A stretch of 64,000 nt of DNA from Clostridia bacterium (GTDB lineage Bacteria; Bacillota; Clostridia; Oscillospirales; Acutalibacteraceae). The translations under genes and the position numbers were made by a program. The DNA lies in the NCBI GenBank assembly GCA_017407705.1, contig JAFQWA010000004.1, positions 1 through 64,000 on the forward strand, in the 5' to 3' direction. Below, one piece after another: positions 870-63,911 of this stretch (positions are counted from its first letter, which is position 1; each line of letters opens with the position of its first letter). Under the pieces are notes generated by a model. It saw only the letters and a list, made by a program, of their open reading frames with translations, was not told where the DNA came from and searched no databases.

Positions 870-1712
870 TTATATCACCTCTGATTTATGACGGGTAACG
901 TGGCAGTTGATGTTGATTGCACAAGGCATACCCGCAATATGAGTGGGCAGAGTTTCGATGTTAAGGCCGATAGCGGTAGTCTTACCGCCAAAGCCCTGAG
1001 GACCGATACCCAGCTGATTGATCTTCTGGAGCATCTCCACCTCTAAATCTGCATAGAAGGGATCTTCGTTTGAAGAGTCGATAGGACGCATCAATGCTTT
1101 TTTAGCCAGTAATGCTGCCTTATCAAAGGTGCCGCCGATACCAACACCCACCACCATAGGAGGACAGGGGTTAGGACCTGCTGTTTCAACGGTTTCGATG
1201 ATGAAATCCTTAATGCCCTGCAAACCTGCAGAGGGCTTAAACATACGGATAGCGCTCATATTCTCACTGCCGAAGCCTTTGGGTCCCACAGTGATTTTAA
1301 CCTGCTCACCGGGAACGATCTCGGTGTAAAGCATAGCAGGAGTGTTATCCCCGGTATTGCCACGACGAACGGGATCCTTTACAACAGACTTACGCAGATA
1401 GCCCTTGTCATAGCCTCTTCTGACGCCCTCGTCAACAGCCTCTCTTAAGTCGCCGCCGATAAGGTGAACGTCCTGACCGATCTCCAGGAAAACACAAGCC
1501 ATCCCTGTGTCCTGACAAATGGGCACGTTTTCATTATCTGCAATTTCAAAGTTTTCAATGATATTATCCAAAACGCCCTTTGCGATCTCACCGTCTTCAC
1601 ATTTACGGCAATTTCTGATAGCGCATTTAACGTCCTGGGGCAGATGATTGTTTGCTTCTATACACAGCTTTTCAACAACATCTGTGATTACACTTACATT
1701 GATCTCACGCAT
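870..1712 (-). CDS. Class I fumarate hydratase, alpha subunit
   Basis: This is the iron-sulfur catalytic subunit of the two-subunit class I fumarase. The start is placed at the ATG at 1712 (protein begins MREINVS), preceded by AAGGAGTAG; a longer reading to 1766 has no ribosome binding site. The 280-residue length fits the family. Conserved cysteines that could hold the [4Fe-4S] cluster are C66 (PICQDTG), C183 (NPCPP) and C270 (NINCH). The GVGIGGTFDKA segment near 189-199 and the GPQGFGGKTTA segment near 237-247 are typical. It is adjacent to the beta gene and 13 bp downstream of the transporter gene, so it is cotranscribed with the fumarate reductase genes. Confidence 0.9.
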   Translation of the reverse strand: MREINVSVITDVVEKLCIEANNHLPQDVKCAIRNCRKCEDGEIAKGVLDNIIENFEIADNENVPICQDTGMACVFLEIGQDVHLIGGDLREAVDEGVRRGYDKGYLRKSVVKDPVRRGNTGDNTPAMLYTEIVPGEQVKITVGPKGFGSENMSAIRMFKPSAGLQGIKDFIIETVETAGPNPCPPMVVGVGIGGTFDKAALLAKKALMRPIDSSNEDPFYADLEVEMLQKINQLGIGPQGFGGKTTAIGLNIETLPTHIAGMPCAININCHVTRHKSEVI

Positions 1713-12311: not shown

Positions 12312-12440
12312 ACTGGGGATTCTCAAGGGCGAGCCCTTGAGCCATTCGGGAAAGGGTTTGCAAAGGGAAAACCCAGTTCTAAAGGGTTGTCCCTTTGCTG
12401 CGTCTTTCCCCCTTTTCTTCGCATAAAGAAAAGGGGTGCC
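12312..12440 (+). repeat. Repeat B, copy 1 (~130 bp multi-hairpin interspersed repeat)
   Basis: It is conserved with 23526-23651 (same strand) and 60870-60998 (opposite strand). Landmarks in order are GGGGATT, the hairpin AAGGGCGAGCCCTT, CCATTCGGGAAAGGG, GCAAAGGGAAAACCC, GCTGCGTCTTT, and the hairpin CCCCTTTTCTTCGC with AAAGAAAAGGGG. It has no open reading frame shared by the copies and no transposase. It is probably a non-autonomous or REP-like element. Confidence 0.85.
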
Positions 12441-19610: not shown

Positions 19611-21745
19611 ATGGAATTAAGAATTGCCCTTGCAGGCAACCCCAACTGCGGCTGACCACGCTGTTTAACGCACTTACCGGTGCTAATCAGTATGTGGGTA
19701 ACTGGCCGGGAGTTACAGTTGAAAAGAAGGAAGGTAAGCTGAAAAAGCACAGTGACGTTACCATCACCGACCTTCCCGGAATTTACTCACTTTCCCCTTA
19801 CACGTTAGAAGAAGTGGTGGCAAGAAATTATCTTGTGGGTGAACGTCCCGATGCTATTTTGAACATTATCGACGGCACTAACTTAGAGCGAAATCTTTAT
19901 CTCACCACTCAGCTTATTGAGCTCGGTATTCCTGTAGTTGCCGCCATCAATATGATGGATATAGTAAGAAAAAACGGTGATAAGATAAACACTGATGAGT
20001 TGTCCCGTCAGCTTGGATGTAAGATAGTTGAAATATCTGCTTTGAAAAGTGACGGTATTTTACAAGCGGCTGAGGCGGCTATTAAAGCGGCTGAAAGCGG
20101 TAAGCCGGTGCCACAGCACACCTTCTCAGGTGCAGTGGAACACGCTATCGCTCACATTGAAGAGGCTGCCGTACATAATCTGCCCTTAGAACAGCAACGT
20201 TGGTATGCGGTTAAAATATTTGAGCGTGATGAAAAAATTCTCGCCCAGCTTAACCTTAGTGAAACCACACTGGAGCATATTGAGCAGGATATTTTAGCGG
20301 CAGAAAAAGAACTGGACGACGATGCTGAAAGCATCATCACCAACGAGCGCTACGTTTATATAGCGTCGCTGATGAAGGCTTGCTACAAGAAAAAGAGCGT
20401 GGGCAAGCTGACCACATCGGATAAAATAGATAAGATAGTCACCAACCGAATTTTGGCTTTGCCCATATTTGCATTTGCTATGTTTTTGGTGTATTATATA
20501 TCTATCGGTTCCATTGGCGACTGGACAGTAGGCTTTATGAACGACACTCTGTTCGGTGAGTGGATAGTGCCGTGGGTGGCATCAAGCCTTGATGCCATTG
20601 GCTGTGCCGACTGGCTGAACGGACTTATTGCCGACGGTATTATCGGCGGTGTGGGTGCTGTTTTGGGCTTTGTTCCCCAGATGATGATACTGTTCCTTTT
20701 GCTGTCTATATTGGAGGACTGCGGCTATATGTCACGAGTTGCCTTTATTATGGACCGTATTTTCCGCAAGTTCGGACTTTCTGGTAAAAGCTTTATTCCT
20801 ATGCTGGTGGCATCAGGATGTGGTGTTCCCGGTATTATGGCATCCCGTACTATTGAGCAGGACCGTGACCGCAAAATGACCATTATGACCACAGGCTTTA
20901 TACCTTGCGGTGCAAAGATGCCCATTGTTGCTTTTATCGCAGGTGCGCTTTTTGGTGGCAGTGCCTGGGTGGCTACCGCCGCTTACTTTATCGGTGTTGG
21001 CGCTGTTATCGTATCCGGTATTATCCTGAAAAAGACTAAAGCCTTTGCAGGTGATCCCGCTCCTTTTGTTATGGAGCTGCCGTCGTATCACGCACCCGTT
21101 GCCTCCAACATTTTCAGAGCAACCTGGGAACGTGGTTGGTCGTTTATTAAGCGTGCAGGCACTGTTATTCTTGCCGCAAGTATTATAATCTGGGTGCTCA
21201 ACAGCCTTTCCTTTGAGGGTGGCTTCCACTATATCGGTGAGGGTGACTCTAAATCGATCCTTAACGTGATCGGCGAGTGGATTGCGGTTGTTTTTGCTCC
21301 TTTAGGCTTTGGCAACTGGCAAGCGGCTGTGGCGACCATACTGGGTCTTGTGGCTAAGGAAGAGGTTGTTGGTGTGTTCGGCTCACTGGCAGGTATGGAA
21401 AATATGTTGGATTTGGTGGAGATGGGCGACCTTACCTCTCAGCAGCAGGCAGGTCTGTTGTTCTTTGGCGGCAGTAAGCTGGCAGGCTTCTCCTTTATGA
21501 TATTCAACCTGTTGTGTGCTCCCTGCTTTGCGGCTATGGGTGCTATAAAGCGTGAGATGAACAACGCAAAATGGACTTGGTTTGCTATTGGTTATATGTG
21601 CGTTTTTGCTTACGCTATCTCCCTTATTGTATATCACATCGGTCTGCTGTTTGGCGGCGTGTTCTCTGCTTGGACTGTTATCGCATTTATCTTACTTGCC
21701 GCTTTGATATATCTGCTGGTCAGAAAAAACAAGCATACTGCTTAA
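19611..21745 (+). pseudogene. feoB: Ferrous iron transporter FeoB, frameshifted at the P-loop
   Basis: The true start is the ATG at 19611 (protein begins MELRIALAGNPNCG). After the GGC codon at 19650-19652 there are only two bases (TG) where the Lys codon of GNPNCGKTTLF should be. The frame runs into TGA (19653-19655) and the rest of the protein (TTLFNALTG onward) continues intact in another frame to 21745. The remaining ~695 residues contain the G domain switch DLPGIYSL, the NMMD guanine motif, the cytosolic helical domain and the FeoB membrane gates. No other break was seen. Either this is a recent pseudogene, or a one-base sequencing/assembly error, or translation restarts downstream (ATG at 19694), giving a protein without a P-loop. 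Confidence 0.88.
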
Positions 21746-21760: not shown

Positions 21761-21934
21761 ATGTTTGACTTTATAGTACAAAACCTTGCAACGATTATTG
21801 TATTTACCATACTGCTTGTTATAGTTGCGGCTATCATAATCAATATGATACGCAACAAAAAGCTGGGTAAGTCCTCTTGCAGCTGCGGATGTAAAGCCTG
21901 CCCTATGAGTGACACCTGCCACAGTAAAAAATAA
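21761..21934 (+). CDS. Small FeoB-associated Cys-rich membrane protein
   Basis: 57 residues. There is one N-terminal membrane helix (about 8-30), then a basic stretch and a cysteine cluster SSCSCGCKACPMSDTC (five Cys in the last 20 residues). This matches the FeoB-associated Cys-rich membrane proteins that follow feoB in many Firmicutes, which may act in place of FeoC. The ATG has the site AAAAGGAGTGTTGTGTT and lies 15 bp after feoB. Confidence 0.85.
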   Translation: MFDFIVQNLATIIVFTILLVIVAAIIINMIRNKKLGKSSCSCGCKACPMSDTCHSKK

Positions 21935-21951
21935 AGTAAAAGAGGTGCTTA

Positions 21952-22156
21952 GAGGCACCCTCCGTAAGGAAGGTGCCTCAGTTATATTCGTGCTTTGCAC
22001 GAGCGATATATCATACGATGCGATATGCGTAAACGCGTGATATACGGCTTTCGCCGTACCCGGTAGCACGAATATAATATCGCAAAAGCCGAAGGCTTTT
22101 ATATCGCTTTTGCAATACGCAAAAATATCGCTGTGAGACCTGTCTCACAATATCAC
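21952..22156 (+). repeat. Hairpin array 1 (variable stems, constant GCGATAT/ATATCGC linker)
   Basis: After a first hairpin (GAGGCACC 21952-21959 with GGTGCCTC 21972-21979) comes a row of short hairpins. They are TCGTGC/GCACGA (21988-22002), GCGT/ACGC (22027-22036), ACGGC/GCCGT (22044-22057), AAAAGCC/GGCTTTT (22084-22100), TTTTGC/GCAAAA (22108-22124) and TGTGAGA/TCTCACA (22132-22149). Linkers in the left half are GCGATAT (22003, 22020) and GTGATAT (22037). In the right half they are ATATCGC (22077, 22101, 22125) and ATATCAC (22150), the reverse complement. ATATTCGTGC (21984) also pairs with GCACGAATAT (22066). No coding potential was seen in this 370 bp gap. Confidence 0.8.
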
Positions 22157-22207
22157 TTATAATTTTTATTTTTGAGATAGGTAAAAATTTAAAGTATGTA
22201 ACCCCCT

Positions 22208-22245
22208 ATGACACTTTCGTTCTGAAAGTGTCATTTTTCTTTTTT
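22208..22245 (+). terminator. Terminator
   Basis: ATGACACTTTC (22208-22218) pairs with GAAAGTGTCAT (22224-22234), followed by a T-rich tract. It ends the feo transcript or the hairpin-array transcript. Confidence 0.8.
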
Positions 22246-22246
22246 G

Positions 22247-22303: not shown

Positions 22304-22855
22304 ATGAAATCGGCTTTAAAGCTATTTTTGGTGTTTGCCCGAATCGGTGCCTTCACCTTCGGCGGTGGCTACGCTATGCTGCCGTTAATACAAAAAGAAG
22401 CGGTTGAAAATCAGAAATGGATCAGTGATGACGACCTGCTCAGCATAGTGGCTATTGCAGAGTCCACCCCGGGCCCTATCGCTATCAACACCGCCACCTT
22501 TGTGGGATATAAGGTTGCAGGGATTTTGGGTTCGGCTTGTGCAACACTGGGCGTGGTTATGCCCTCGTTTTTGATAATCTATGCTATTTCCTTTGTGTTG
22601 GAGCAGTTTCAGAGTTTACAAATCATTCAGTATGCCTTCAACGGTATCAGAGCAGGTGTTTTAGCTTTGATAGTCAAGGCACTGTGGACTATGTATAAAA
22701 AATGCCCCAAGCATTTGGTGTCCTACATCATCACGGCACTTGCCTTTGTTGTGGCGGCATTTACTGATGTGAACATAATATTTATTATCATCGCCTGTGC
22801 TGTTATCGGCATTATCTACGGCAAGTGGCAGACAAGGAAGGTGAAGGATAAATGA
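22304..22855 (+). CDS. CHR-family (chromate) transporter, first short subunit
   Basis: A 183-residue half-size CHR protein with about five membrane segments. It carries the family signature FTFGGGYAMLPLI near 18-30 and ESTPGPIAINTATFVGY near 58-74. Half-size CHR proteins are encoded as pairs that insert with opposite topology and act together. The natural substrate in anaerobes is unclear; chromate efflux is the named activity of the family. It overlaps the second gene by ATGA. RBS AAAAAGGAG. Confidence 0.88.
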   Translation: MKSALKLFLVFARIGAFTFGGGYAMLPLIQKEAVENQKWISDDDLLSIVAIAESTPGPIAINTATFVGYKVAGILGSACATLGVVMPSFLIIYAISFVLEQFQSLQIIQYAFNGIRAGVLALIVKALWTMYKKCPKHLVSYIITALAFVVAAFTDVNIIFIIIACAVIGIIYGKWQTRKVKDK

Positions 22856-23525: not shown

Positions 23526-23651
23526 TGGGGATTTTTAAGGGCGAGCCCTTAAACCATTCGGGAAAGGGATTGCAAAGGGAAAACCCAGTTTGGAAGGGTT
23601 TTCCCTTGCTGCGTCTTTTCCCCTTTTCTTCGCATAAAGAAAAGGGGCGCC
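23526..23651 (+). repeat. Repeat B, copy 2
   Basis: It is about 90% identical by eye to 12312-12440 and has the same order of hairpins. It fills most of the 290 bp gap between the CHR pair and the convergent ABC transporter gene. Confidence 0.85.
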
Positions 23652-46023: not shown

Positions 46024-46154
46024 CGGCTCCCTCTGACGAGGGAGCTGTCGAAACCGTAGGTTTTGACTGAGGGAGAGAATGGGGATCTATGTTGTTTTCT
46101 CTCCCTCCGTCTTTTTGCTTTGCAAAAATCCACCTCCCTCGTCAGAGGGAGGCT
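46024..46154. mobile_element. MITE-like element with GGGAG inverted ends
   Basis: The left end CTCCCTCTGACGAGGGAG and right end CTCCCTCGTCAGAGGGAG are exact reverse complements, and each is itself a hairpin. Inside, GGGAGAGAA and TTCTCTCCC also pair. Similar CTCCCTC elements are frequent in Faecalibacterium-type genomes as I recall them. There is no coding capacity. Confidence 0.7.
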
Positions 46155-63469: not shown

Positions 63470-63622
63470 ACACACACCTTACTTTATATAACATAAATAT
63501 TATATCACTTTATTTTTAAATTTCAAGAATAGCATTTGATACTATAATAAAAGAGAGGGGCTATGTATTGTACTCTAAAGGAAAGTTTTTAAATTCAACA
63601 GAATACAGTACCTACCGACACC

Positions 63623-63676: not shown

Positions 63677-63893
63677 ATTTGTGGACACAAATACATATTG
63701 ATGAATTGACGGCAAGCCGTCATGAATTGAAGCCTTATGGCTTCATGATTTGAAATCTAAGGATTTCATGAATTTAATTGCCCTATTTTGTCATGCCGCA
63801 GGCAATTCATGCACTAAAAGTGCAATTTATGGCGCGAGCCAATTCACGCCCGTAAGGGCAATTCATTGCGTAGTGTCCTTAAGGGCACTACGC
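63677..63893 (+). repeat. Hairpin array 2 (variable stems, constant ATGAATT/AATTCAT linker)
   Basis: Hairpins in order: ATTTGTG/CACAAAT (63677-63692), GACGGC/GCCGTC (63708-63721), GAAGCC/GGCTTC (63729-63744), GAAATC/GATTTC (63752-63767), ATTGCC/GGCAAT (63777-63806), GCACT/AGTGC (63811-63823), GGC/GCC (63831-63840), GCCC/GGGC (63848-63859), GCGTAGTG/CACTACGC (63868-63893). Linkers on the left are ATGAATT (63701, 63722, 63768) with one ATGATTT. On the right they are AATTCAT (63804, 63860), AATTTAT and AATTCAC. No gene is seen in this gap. Confidence 0.85.
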
Positions 63894-63911
63894 ATACCCC
63901 TCTCTTTTTAT

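Follow-up and report, generated by a model that had tools for sequence, protein, structure and literature searches.

A hairpin array beside a feoB operon is probably a solo copy of a mobile-looking ladder element that elsewhere adjoins IVP genes

IVP/S23 proteins form a four-helix-bundle family (PF05635) encoded by bacterial 23S rRNA intervening sequences (IVSs). REPs share a conserved sequence that includes a GTAG/CGTC tag, and they are associated with a RAYT transposase. In the Coxiella IVS, tandem heptamers whose number varies between strains precede the S23p ORF, and the ends pair as a 28-bp stem (PMC4990558). The heptanucleotide repeats of cyanobacteria and Beggiatoaceae (STRR, TAACTGA) are intergenic and scattered, and their 7-nt units stand in tandem without intervening hairpins (PMC4679880); the parts of the TAACTGA paper covered by our search make no mention of S23 or of intervening sequences. 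Gut-1 (Rfam RF01706) is an orphan RNA described by Weinberg et al. in 2010; it was known solely from metagenomic reads of the human gut and had neither a gene nor a function assigned to it, and its 77 nt comprise hairpins with GUGAAAU linkers between them (PMC2864571). Literature searches on hairpin or palindrome arrays in Firmicutes, or on a link between IVP and hairpins, returned nothing relevant.

The window analysed here, a 64,000-nt stretch of a Clostridia genome (contig JAFQWA010000004.1), harbours between positions 21952 and 22156 of the forward strand a run of eight short hairpins whose stems are unrelated in sequence; all but the first of these hairpins alternate with 7-nt linkers. 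The run represents a copy of a nucleic-acid element that looks mobile and is widespread in gut bacteria and in some of their phages. The best explanation, which we consider probable, is that of a mobile ladder element whose complete copies include an IVP gene, the window array being a stand-alone (solo) copy of this dispersed element.

The array, all parts of which lie on the forward strand, begins with the lead hairpin H0 (GAGGCACCCTCC-GTAA-GGAAGGTGCCTC, 21952-21979), in which 11 of 12 pairs form, and with a degenerate first linker (AGTTATAT, 21980-21987) that was placed as L1 by alignment to model R1 (see below). The left half continues with the perfect hairpins H1 (TCGTGC-TTT-GCACGA, 21988-22002), H2 (ATC-ATAC-GAT, 22010-22019), H3 (GCG-TAAA-CGC, 22027-22036) and H4 (ACGGC-TTTC-GCCGT, 22044-22057), separated by two exact GCGATAT linkers, L2 (22003-22009) and L3 (22020-22026), and by the variant GTGATAT, L4 (22037-22043). 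In the right half, the equally perfect hairpins h1 (AAAAGCC-GAA-GGCTTTT, 22084-22100), h2 (TTTTGC-AATAC-GCAAAA, 22108-22124) and h3 (TGTGAGAC-CT-GTCTCACA, 22132-22149) alternate with the linkers R1 (22077-22083), R2 (22101-22107) and R3 (22125-22131), all exact ATATCGC, which are the partners of L4, L3 and L2, respectively, and with the variant ATATCAC, R4 (22150-22156), the partner of L1. The initial annotation of this DNA had already reported perfect short hairpins with unrelated stems and a linker that flips from GCGATAT to ATATCGC, both of which are borne out with the exceptions just given; it had not described the degenerate L1, the X'' segment, or the links to IVP genes and to Gut-1.

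RNA folding of positions 21900-22210 yielded -98 kcal/mol, as against -66.4 +/- 5.2 kcal/mol for shuffled sequences (z = -6.1, 0/100). Hairpin clusters of this kind occur 11 times in ~855 kb of sampled DNA and not at all in first-order-shuffled copies. As a lone word, GCGATAT is not enriched in the window (9 occurrences vs 6.3 expected), and it is only its arrangement, not its abundance, that is unusual. A scan of the window against Rfam gave no family at the gathering score, and no rRNA match was found within it.

Parsing of 29 GATAT arrays, 23 of them complete, yielded a fixed plan. On the left, H0 is followed by L1-H1-L2-H2-L3-H3-L4-H4; a short GNGA-like spacer and X'' come next, and the right half reads R1-h1-R2-h2-R3-h3-R4. 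Twenty of the 23 complete arrays, from many genera, fit this template of four units on the left and three on the right exactly, and the window array fits it too, its L1 being degenerate. Without structure guidance, RNAalifold returned the helices L1:R4, L2:R3, L3:R2 and L4:R1 with the hairpins between them, and folding of individual sequences produced the ladder in the window array, with three linker helices, as well as in one other copy, L139. The GATAT arrays are thus predicted by these models to form a ladder of perfect four-way junctions with two hairpins at each joint. Chained perfect four-way junctions without unpaired bases represent an unusual nucleic-acid architecture.

Comparisons between copies agree with this fold. 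In the GATAT arrays, pairing in the named structure reaches 94.9%, 22 pairs show double changes, and the covariation amounts to 0.303 vs 0.113 after shuffling (0/500 shuffles). Terminal pairs of the stems are paired in 82-100% of cases despite differing sequences (shuffled means 55-89%); because MAFFT misaligned the repeated linkers, a further comparison of the hairpins used blocks defined by the linkers. When arrays of the different linker types are compared, pairing in the linker helices is 91-98.5% vs 78-84% in shuffled controls, with about 20 both-side changes each, in an alignment fitted to model R1, which favours high pairing. The earlier proposal that the linkers pair, with a hairpin at every junction, is therefore supported, with two hairpins per joint in place of one, and stems vary while linkers stay constant, as it had stated.

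The same annotation had further proposed that the array grows by adding hairpins at fixed joints, by replication slippage or hairpin capture as we would put it, and the constant linkers do amount to direct repeats around unrelated hairpins. However, the number of units is constant at 4+3 in the 20 arrays and in the window array alike, and X'' is conserved together with position-specific traits, namely a first hairpin of the type AAATYCC..GGRATTT and tandem GA confined to the right half. The duplications that we did observe, at four loci (L084, L104, L140 and L151), are of whole arrays in tandem and not of single hairpins. Growth by units is hence highly improbable, and of the earlier interpretation the pairing, the branching and the recurrence of the arrays stand. 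A CRISPR-like reading was ruled out as well, because of the self-complementarity of the units and their constant number. In one pair of sister species (G153 and G100), a larger unrelated hairpin sits within the loop of h2 in both (L093/L094).

Superimposed on the ladder is a second possible pairing. X'' (AGCACGAATATAA, 22065-22077) is the exact reverse complement, over 13 nt (100%), of X (21982-21994), a segment that also builds H1 and is in part complementary to the 3' arm of that hairpin, so that X'' is an alternative partner for X. For the window array, the computed energies of the ladder (-56.5 kcal/mol) and of X:X'' (-56.7 kcal/mol) are almost the same; in other copies, the ladder is favoured. 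A complement of the X'' type of at least 8 nt is found in 46 of 56 IVP-linked arrays, vs 25 of 277 mismatched pairs; these 56 arrays comprise all linker types and were identified independently of X''. X and X'' may act as a fold switch.

Gut-1 shares the trait of constant 7-nt linkers between consecutive hairpins, with GCGATAT in the window array instead of GUGAAAU. The window array itself scores 29.3 bits with RF01706 (E = 0.048), under the 50-bit gathering score. The family is nevertheless found in two sister arrays of the same genome (89.8 bits for L059 and 51.6 bits for L010). Eighteen arrays with the GAAAT linker, located 5' of IVP genes, were also tested, and 13 of them attain the gathering score. 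These matches show Gut-1 to be, as far as sequence comparison goes, the left half of a GAAAT-linker ladder. Compared with it, the ladder unit is ~180-200 nt long, has a right half as well, occurs with further linkers and includes X'' together with an IVP gene, and the orphan Gut-1 thereby gains a full extent, a structure and a possible protein partner.

Model R1 gives the window array 121.6 bits over positions 1-178, this copy having been among its ten training sequences. L155, the copy most closely related to the window array, comes from another family, was not used for training and obtains 69.9 bits. Trained on GATAT arrays only, the model also recovers arrays with other linkers, at full length, directly 5' of IVP genes.

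In six genomes (G266, G275, G383, G317, G165 and G153) the array is followed, on the same strand, by an IVP gene whose start is 26-75 bp away, and in all but one of 56 measured cases the gene comes 14-92 nt after the array in the same orientation. Named genomes were searched with 21 IVP proteins, all of which match PF05635, and 80 loci were collected; an inverted-linker array is present in the 330 nt upstream of 57 of 77 IVP genes, vs 0/68 in far-upstream control zones, 3/77 downstream and 0/77 in Markov or shuffled copies. Linkers at these loci include GCGATAT, TCGATAT, GTGAAAT, ATGAAAT, TGAATTG, GTGAAGT, AATGATG, GTGATGT and AGCTAAA. When mapped on a tree of 56 IVPs, linker type undergoes 8 changes, for a minimum of 7 and a shuffled value of 28.4 (0/200), which shows, on the phylogeny used, that each IVP clade has one linker type and that protein and linker travel together. 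This agreement could reflect joint descent of a linked unit instead of recognition. Relatives of IVP with solved structures, 2rld and 2gsc, comprise five chains each. The function of IVP/S23p has been a question since the 1990s, and the pattern of one linker per clade makes binding experimentally approachable.

The window array departs from these complete copies in that no IVP gene lies directly 3' of it, a chromate transporter gene being found there instead; the sole IVP found in its genome is interrupted by a contig end. Solo arrays are in fact far commoner than IVP-linked ones, and some are intact without a trace of the gene. The position of the array just 5' of IVP in 55 of 56 cases, the switch-like alternative pairing X/X'/X'' and an orthologous site at which G153 has array and IVP while G100 has the same array alone could all be explained if the ladder were an immobile cis-regulatory leader through which the IVP gene regulates itself, solo arrays being remnants after its loss. 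This is unlikely in view of the great majority of solo arrays, of the mere 51 nt that separate the end of the window array from a terminator, and of the gain or loss of an array without IVP at a phage site (see below). In addition, copies of the tRNA type have a sigma-70-like promoter between array and IVP gene, which rlmD-type copies lack, so that in the former the IVP transcript may not include the array in its leader.

As for its surroundings, the window array occupies an intergenic site and not a helix of 23S rRNA as IVSs do. On its 5' side are feoB (19694-21745) and a gene for a FeoB-associated Cys-rich protein (21761-21934); on its 3' side, an intrinsic terminator (22208-22246) precedes the first of a pair of chromate transporter genes (22304-22855) that make up another operon, all on the forward strand. 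This location, with the feoB operon on one side and the terminator of that operon on the other, and the very stable fold would suit an RNA selected by the host as a stabiliser or regulator in the 3'-UTR of the operon. Such a role is very unlikely, however, since the nearest relative, L155, lies between uvrC- and HPr-like frames, other copies follow tRNA, tmRNA, rlmD or phage genes, and pairs present in the G100 copy have been lost from its sister, a solo copy in G153. Taken together, the phage site, this decay between sister copies, the presence or absence of IVP and the context of L155 argue for the behaviour of a mobile element and not of a feoB regulator, and the window copy is probably passive where it stands.

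The two strands of the element differ. Right-half hairpins contain 31 tandem G.A mismatches on the IVP strand and 0 on the antisense strand, and 18 GNRA loops vs 0. The left half is mixed, with 11 UNCG loops in the sense orientation and 26 GNRA-type loops when read antisense. From the bias of the right half and the mixed left half, it is likely that a single strand of the element is read, be it RNA or ssDNA, and we regard RNA as the probable form. The competing possibility, that it is a folded ssDNA moved by a Y1/RAYT or IS200/IS605 transposase with IVP as a DNA-binding accessory, would fit with its near self-complementarity, model R1 scoring both strands, with the hairpins that copies adjoin and with the single Y1 transposase-like gene in the genome of the window. 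In that genome, the one covered by the search, the Y1_Tnp gene is on contig C21 and adjoins none of the arrays found. Against this possibility, no Y1 gene was seen beside arrays among the loci read, and the asymmetries above (31:0 and 18:0) likewise speak against it. The ladder resembles REPs and BIMEs in being intergenic, palindromic and dispersed in many copies; unlike them, its stems differ while its linkers are constant, and the neighbouring protein is IVP instead of RAYT. No stem sequence is common to the copies, stems being unlike between units as well, and inspection revealed no GTAG/CGTC tag beside the window hairpins. A DNA-level element of this type is accordingly doubtful, and a REP/RAYT reading was rejected for want of a conserved REP sequence in a genome with one Y1 gene.

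Similar arrays elsewhere, which the initial annotation had called for, are present both in the same genome and in relatives. In the 1.6-Mb genome of the window, exact double linkers also occur on contigs C18 and C20, and arrays with other linkers were found on C17 and C3 (GTGAAAT), C8 (GTGAAG) and C4 (TATATCAT); contig ends are frequent inside arrays (C3, C4, C30), and such counts are therefore low estimates. The C4 array has the opposite linker orientation, with TATATCAT on the left and ATGATATA on the right. The pattern of three successive GCGATAT was detected in 36 of 394 genomes of the order, at up to 36 per genome, including a few coding repeats such as L103, vs 2 occurrences in one genome for the reversed control pattern. 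These genomes are mostly MAGs, one per species, and the loci were found in part through the GCGATAT pattern itself.

The surroundings of the copies have features in common. The sequence of H0 shows no likeness between copies and in some of them is an intrinsic terminator; in at least 30 of 56 IVP-linked arrays H0 is a hairpin with a T-run, further arrays come after the 3' end of rlmD, and a tRNA gene is present within 260 nt upstream of 27 of the 56. The flanks of the loci show that copies tend to be placed beside a hairpin, in many cases the terminator of a tRNA or tmRNA gene, or at the 3' end of rlmD. In the genome of the window, one ladder follows the tmRNA terminator (9281-9496 of L050, from C8), another the terminator of a tRNA gene (1-246 of L046, from C4) and a third that of another tRNA gene (18377-18555 of L059, from C17). 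The window contains a second ladder, on the minus strand (63698-63893, H0 at 63866-63893), whose linker ATGAATT/AATTCAT matches the GAATT clade of IVP genes; it lies inside a 12-bp inverted repeat (63549-63560 and 63897-63908) followed by a T-run. Insertion into terminator loops was considered, and outer inverted repeats of at least 10 bp flank 9 of 38 arrays vs 19 of 222 controls; it is convincing in a few copies only (C18, C20, the second window array and L159) and was therefore not generalised.

At one phage site the array is present in some relatives and absent from others. On a contig with terminase, portal, major head, tail and endolysin genes (L291), an array flanked by an 18-nt direct repeat lies just before the major head gene. 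Of the 79 contigs of this phage family, the contig itself (L489) included, 77 have no array at that site, which argues that the element moves, and one further contig has an array with another linker there. Empty sites of this kind open movement to direct testing. The site (L489-L568) is also a hot spot for repeats, with an inverted heptamer array GTGCACA..TGTGCAC in L539 and a GTAGGGG palindromic repeat in L494. Matches to the linker pattern in viral contigs are mostly not ladders, a handful of 86 tested loci having passed model R1, and a search of phage records with the DNA of the array gave no match. Target-site duplications are not general, with single cases of 9, 18 and 24 nt (L011, L291 and L094), so that no known transposition chemistry is implied; a classical transposon or MITE was ruled out on this inconsistency.

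In the mobile ladder element that we favour, the non-coding half consists of four 7-bp linker helices with a hairpin pair at each joint, and complete copies run straight into the IVP/S23 gene, 3' on the same strand. An IVP oligomer would recognise its own heptamer helices, and the resulting ribonucleoprotein would help copies to settle next to hairpins; solo copies, including that of the window, would have spread in trans or been left behind by gene loss. The binding by IVP, the choice between RNA and ssDNA and the route of movement are the inferred parts of this scheme. More tentatively still, one may envisage a new class of minimal mobile elements, each made of a small oligomeric IVP and a four-way-junction ladder of inverted heptamers, in which every IVP clade would recognise a heptamer of its own and would insert copies next to hairpins or maintain them there, and which would unite Gut-1, IVSs and cyanobacterial repeats. 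The findings suggest that hairpin arrays in intergenic DNA, the intervening sequences of 23S rRNA and repeated heptamers are forms of one element.

Like 23S rRNA IVSs, the ladders involve the same protein family, terminal inverted repeats, heptamers, hairpin sites and a sporadic distribution; unlike them, they are intergenic or phage-borne, have hairpins between heptamers and include solo copies without the ORF. By analogy, the four heptamer helices of a ladder would total 28 bp, as does the Coxiella IVS stem. With STRR and TAACTGA repeats they share the 7-nt unit and the scattered, intergenic location, those repeats differing by their lack of intervening hairpins. Some IVP genes have inverted tandem 7-mers in place of hairpin ladders, and runs of at least 9 at lag 7 are present in 5 of 20 Clostridia IVP loci, with none at other lags. 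Cyanobacterial IVP genes bear inverted heptamer arrays, and at five loci (L481, L484, L485, L486 and L487) inverted heptamers flank IVP on plasmids of Nostoc, Planktothrix and Treponema, a Nostoc example having AATTCGC x4 before the gene and GCGAATT x4 behind it. This arrangement suggests that at least some cyanobacterial heptamer repeats are part of IVP elements.

Other repeats were also found in the window. Positions 12322-12436 and 23534-23647 share a hairpin pair (AAGGGCGAGCCCTT-type and CCCCTTTTCTTCGCATAAAGAAAAGGGG), apparently another dispersed repeat. A palindromic repeat at 46026-46152 (GCTCCCTCTGACGAGGGAGC ... CCTCCCTCGTCAGAGGGAGG) represents a separate dispersed type, found as well in L105, L168 and L169. 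Lastly, a common stretch, TTGTACTCT(A/T)AAGGA, lies beside terminator hairpins near two ladders, at 63569-63583 (+) of the window and at ~1331-1345 (-) of L009.
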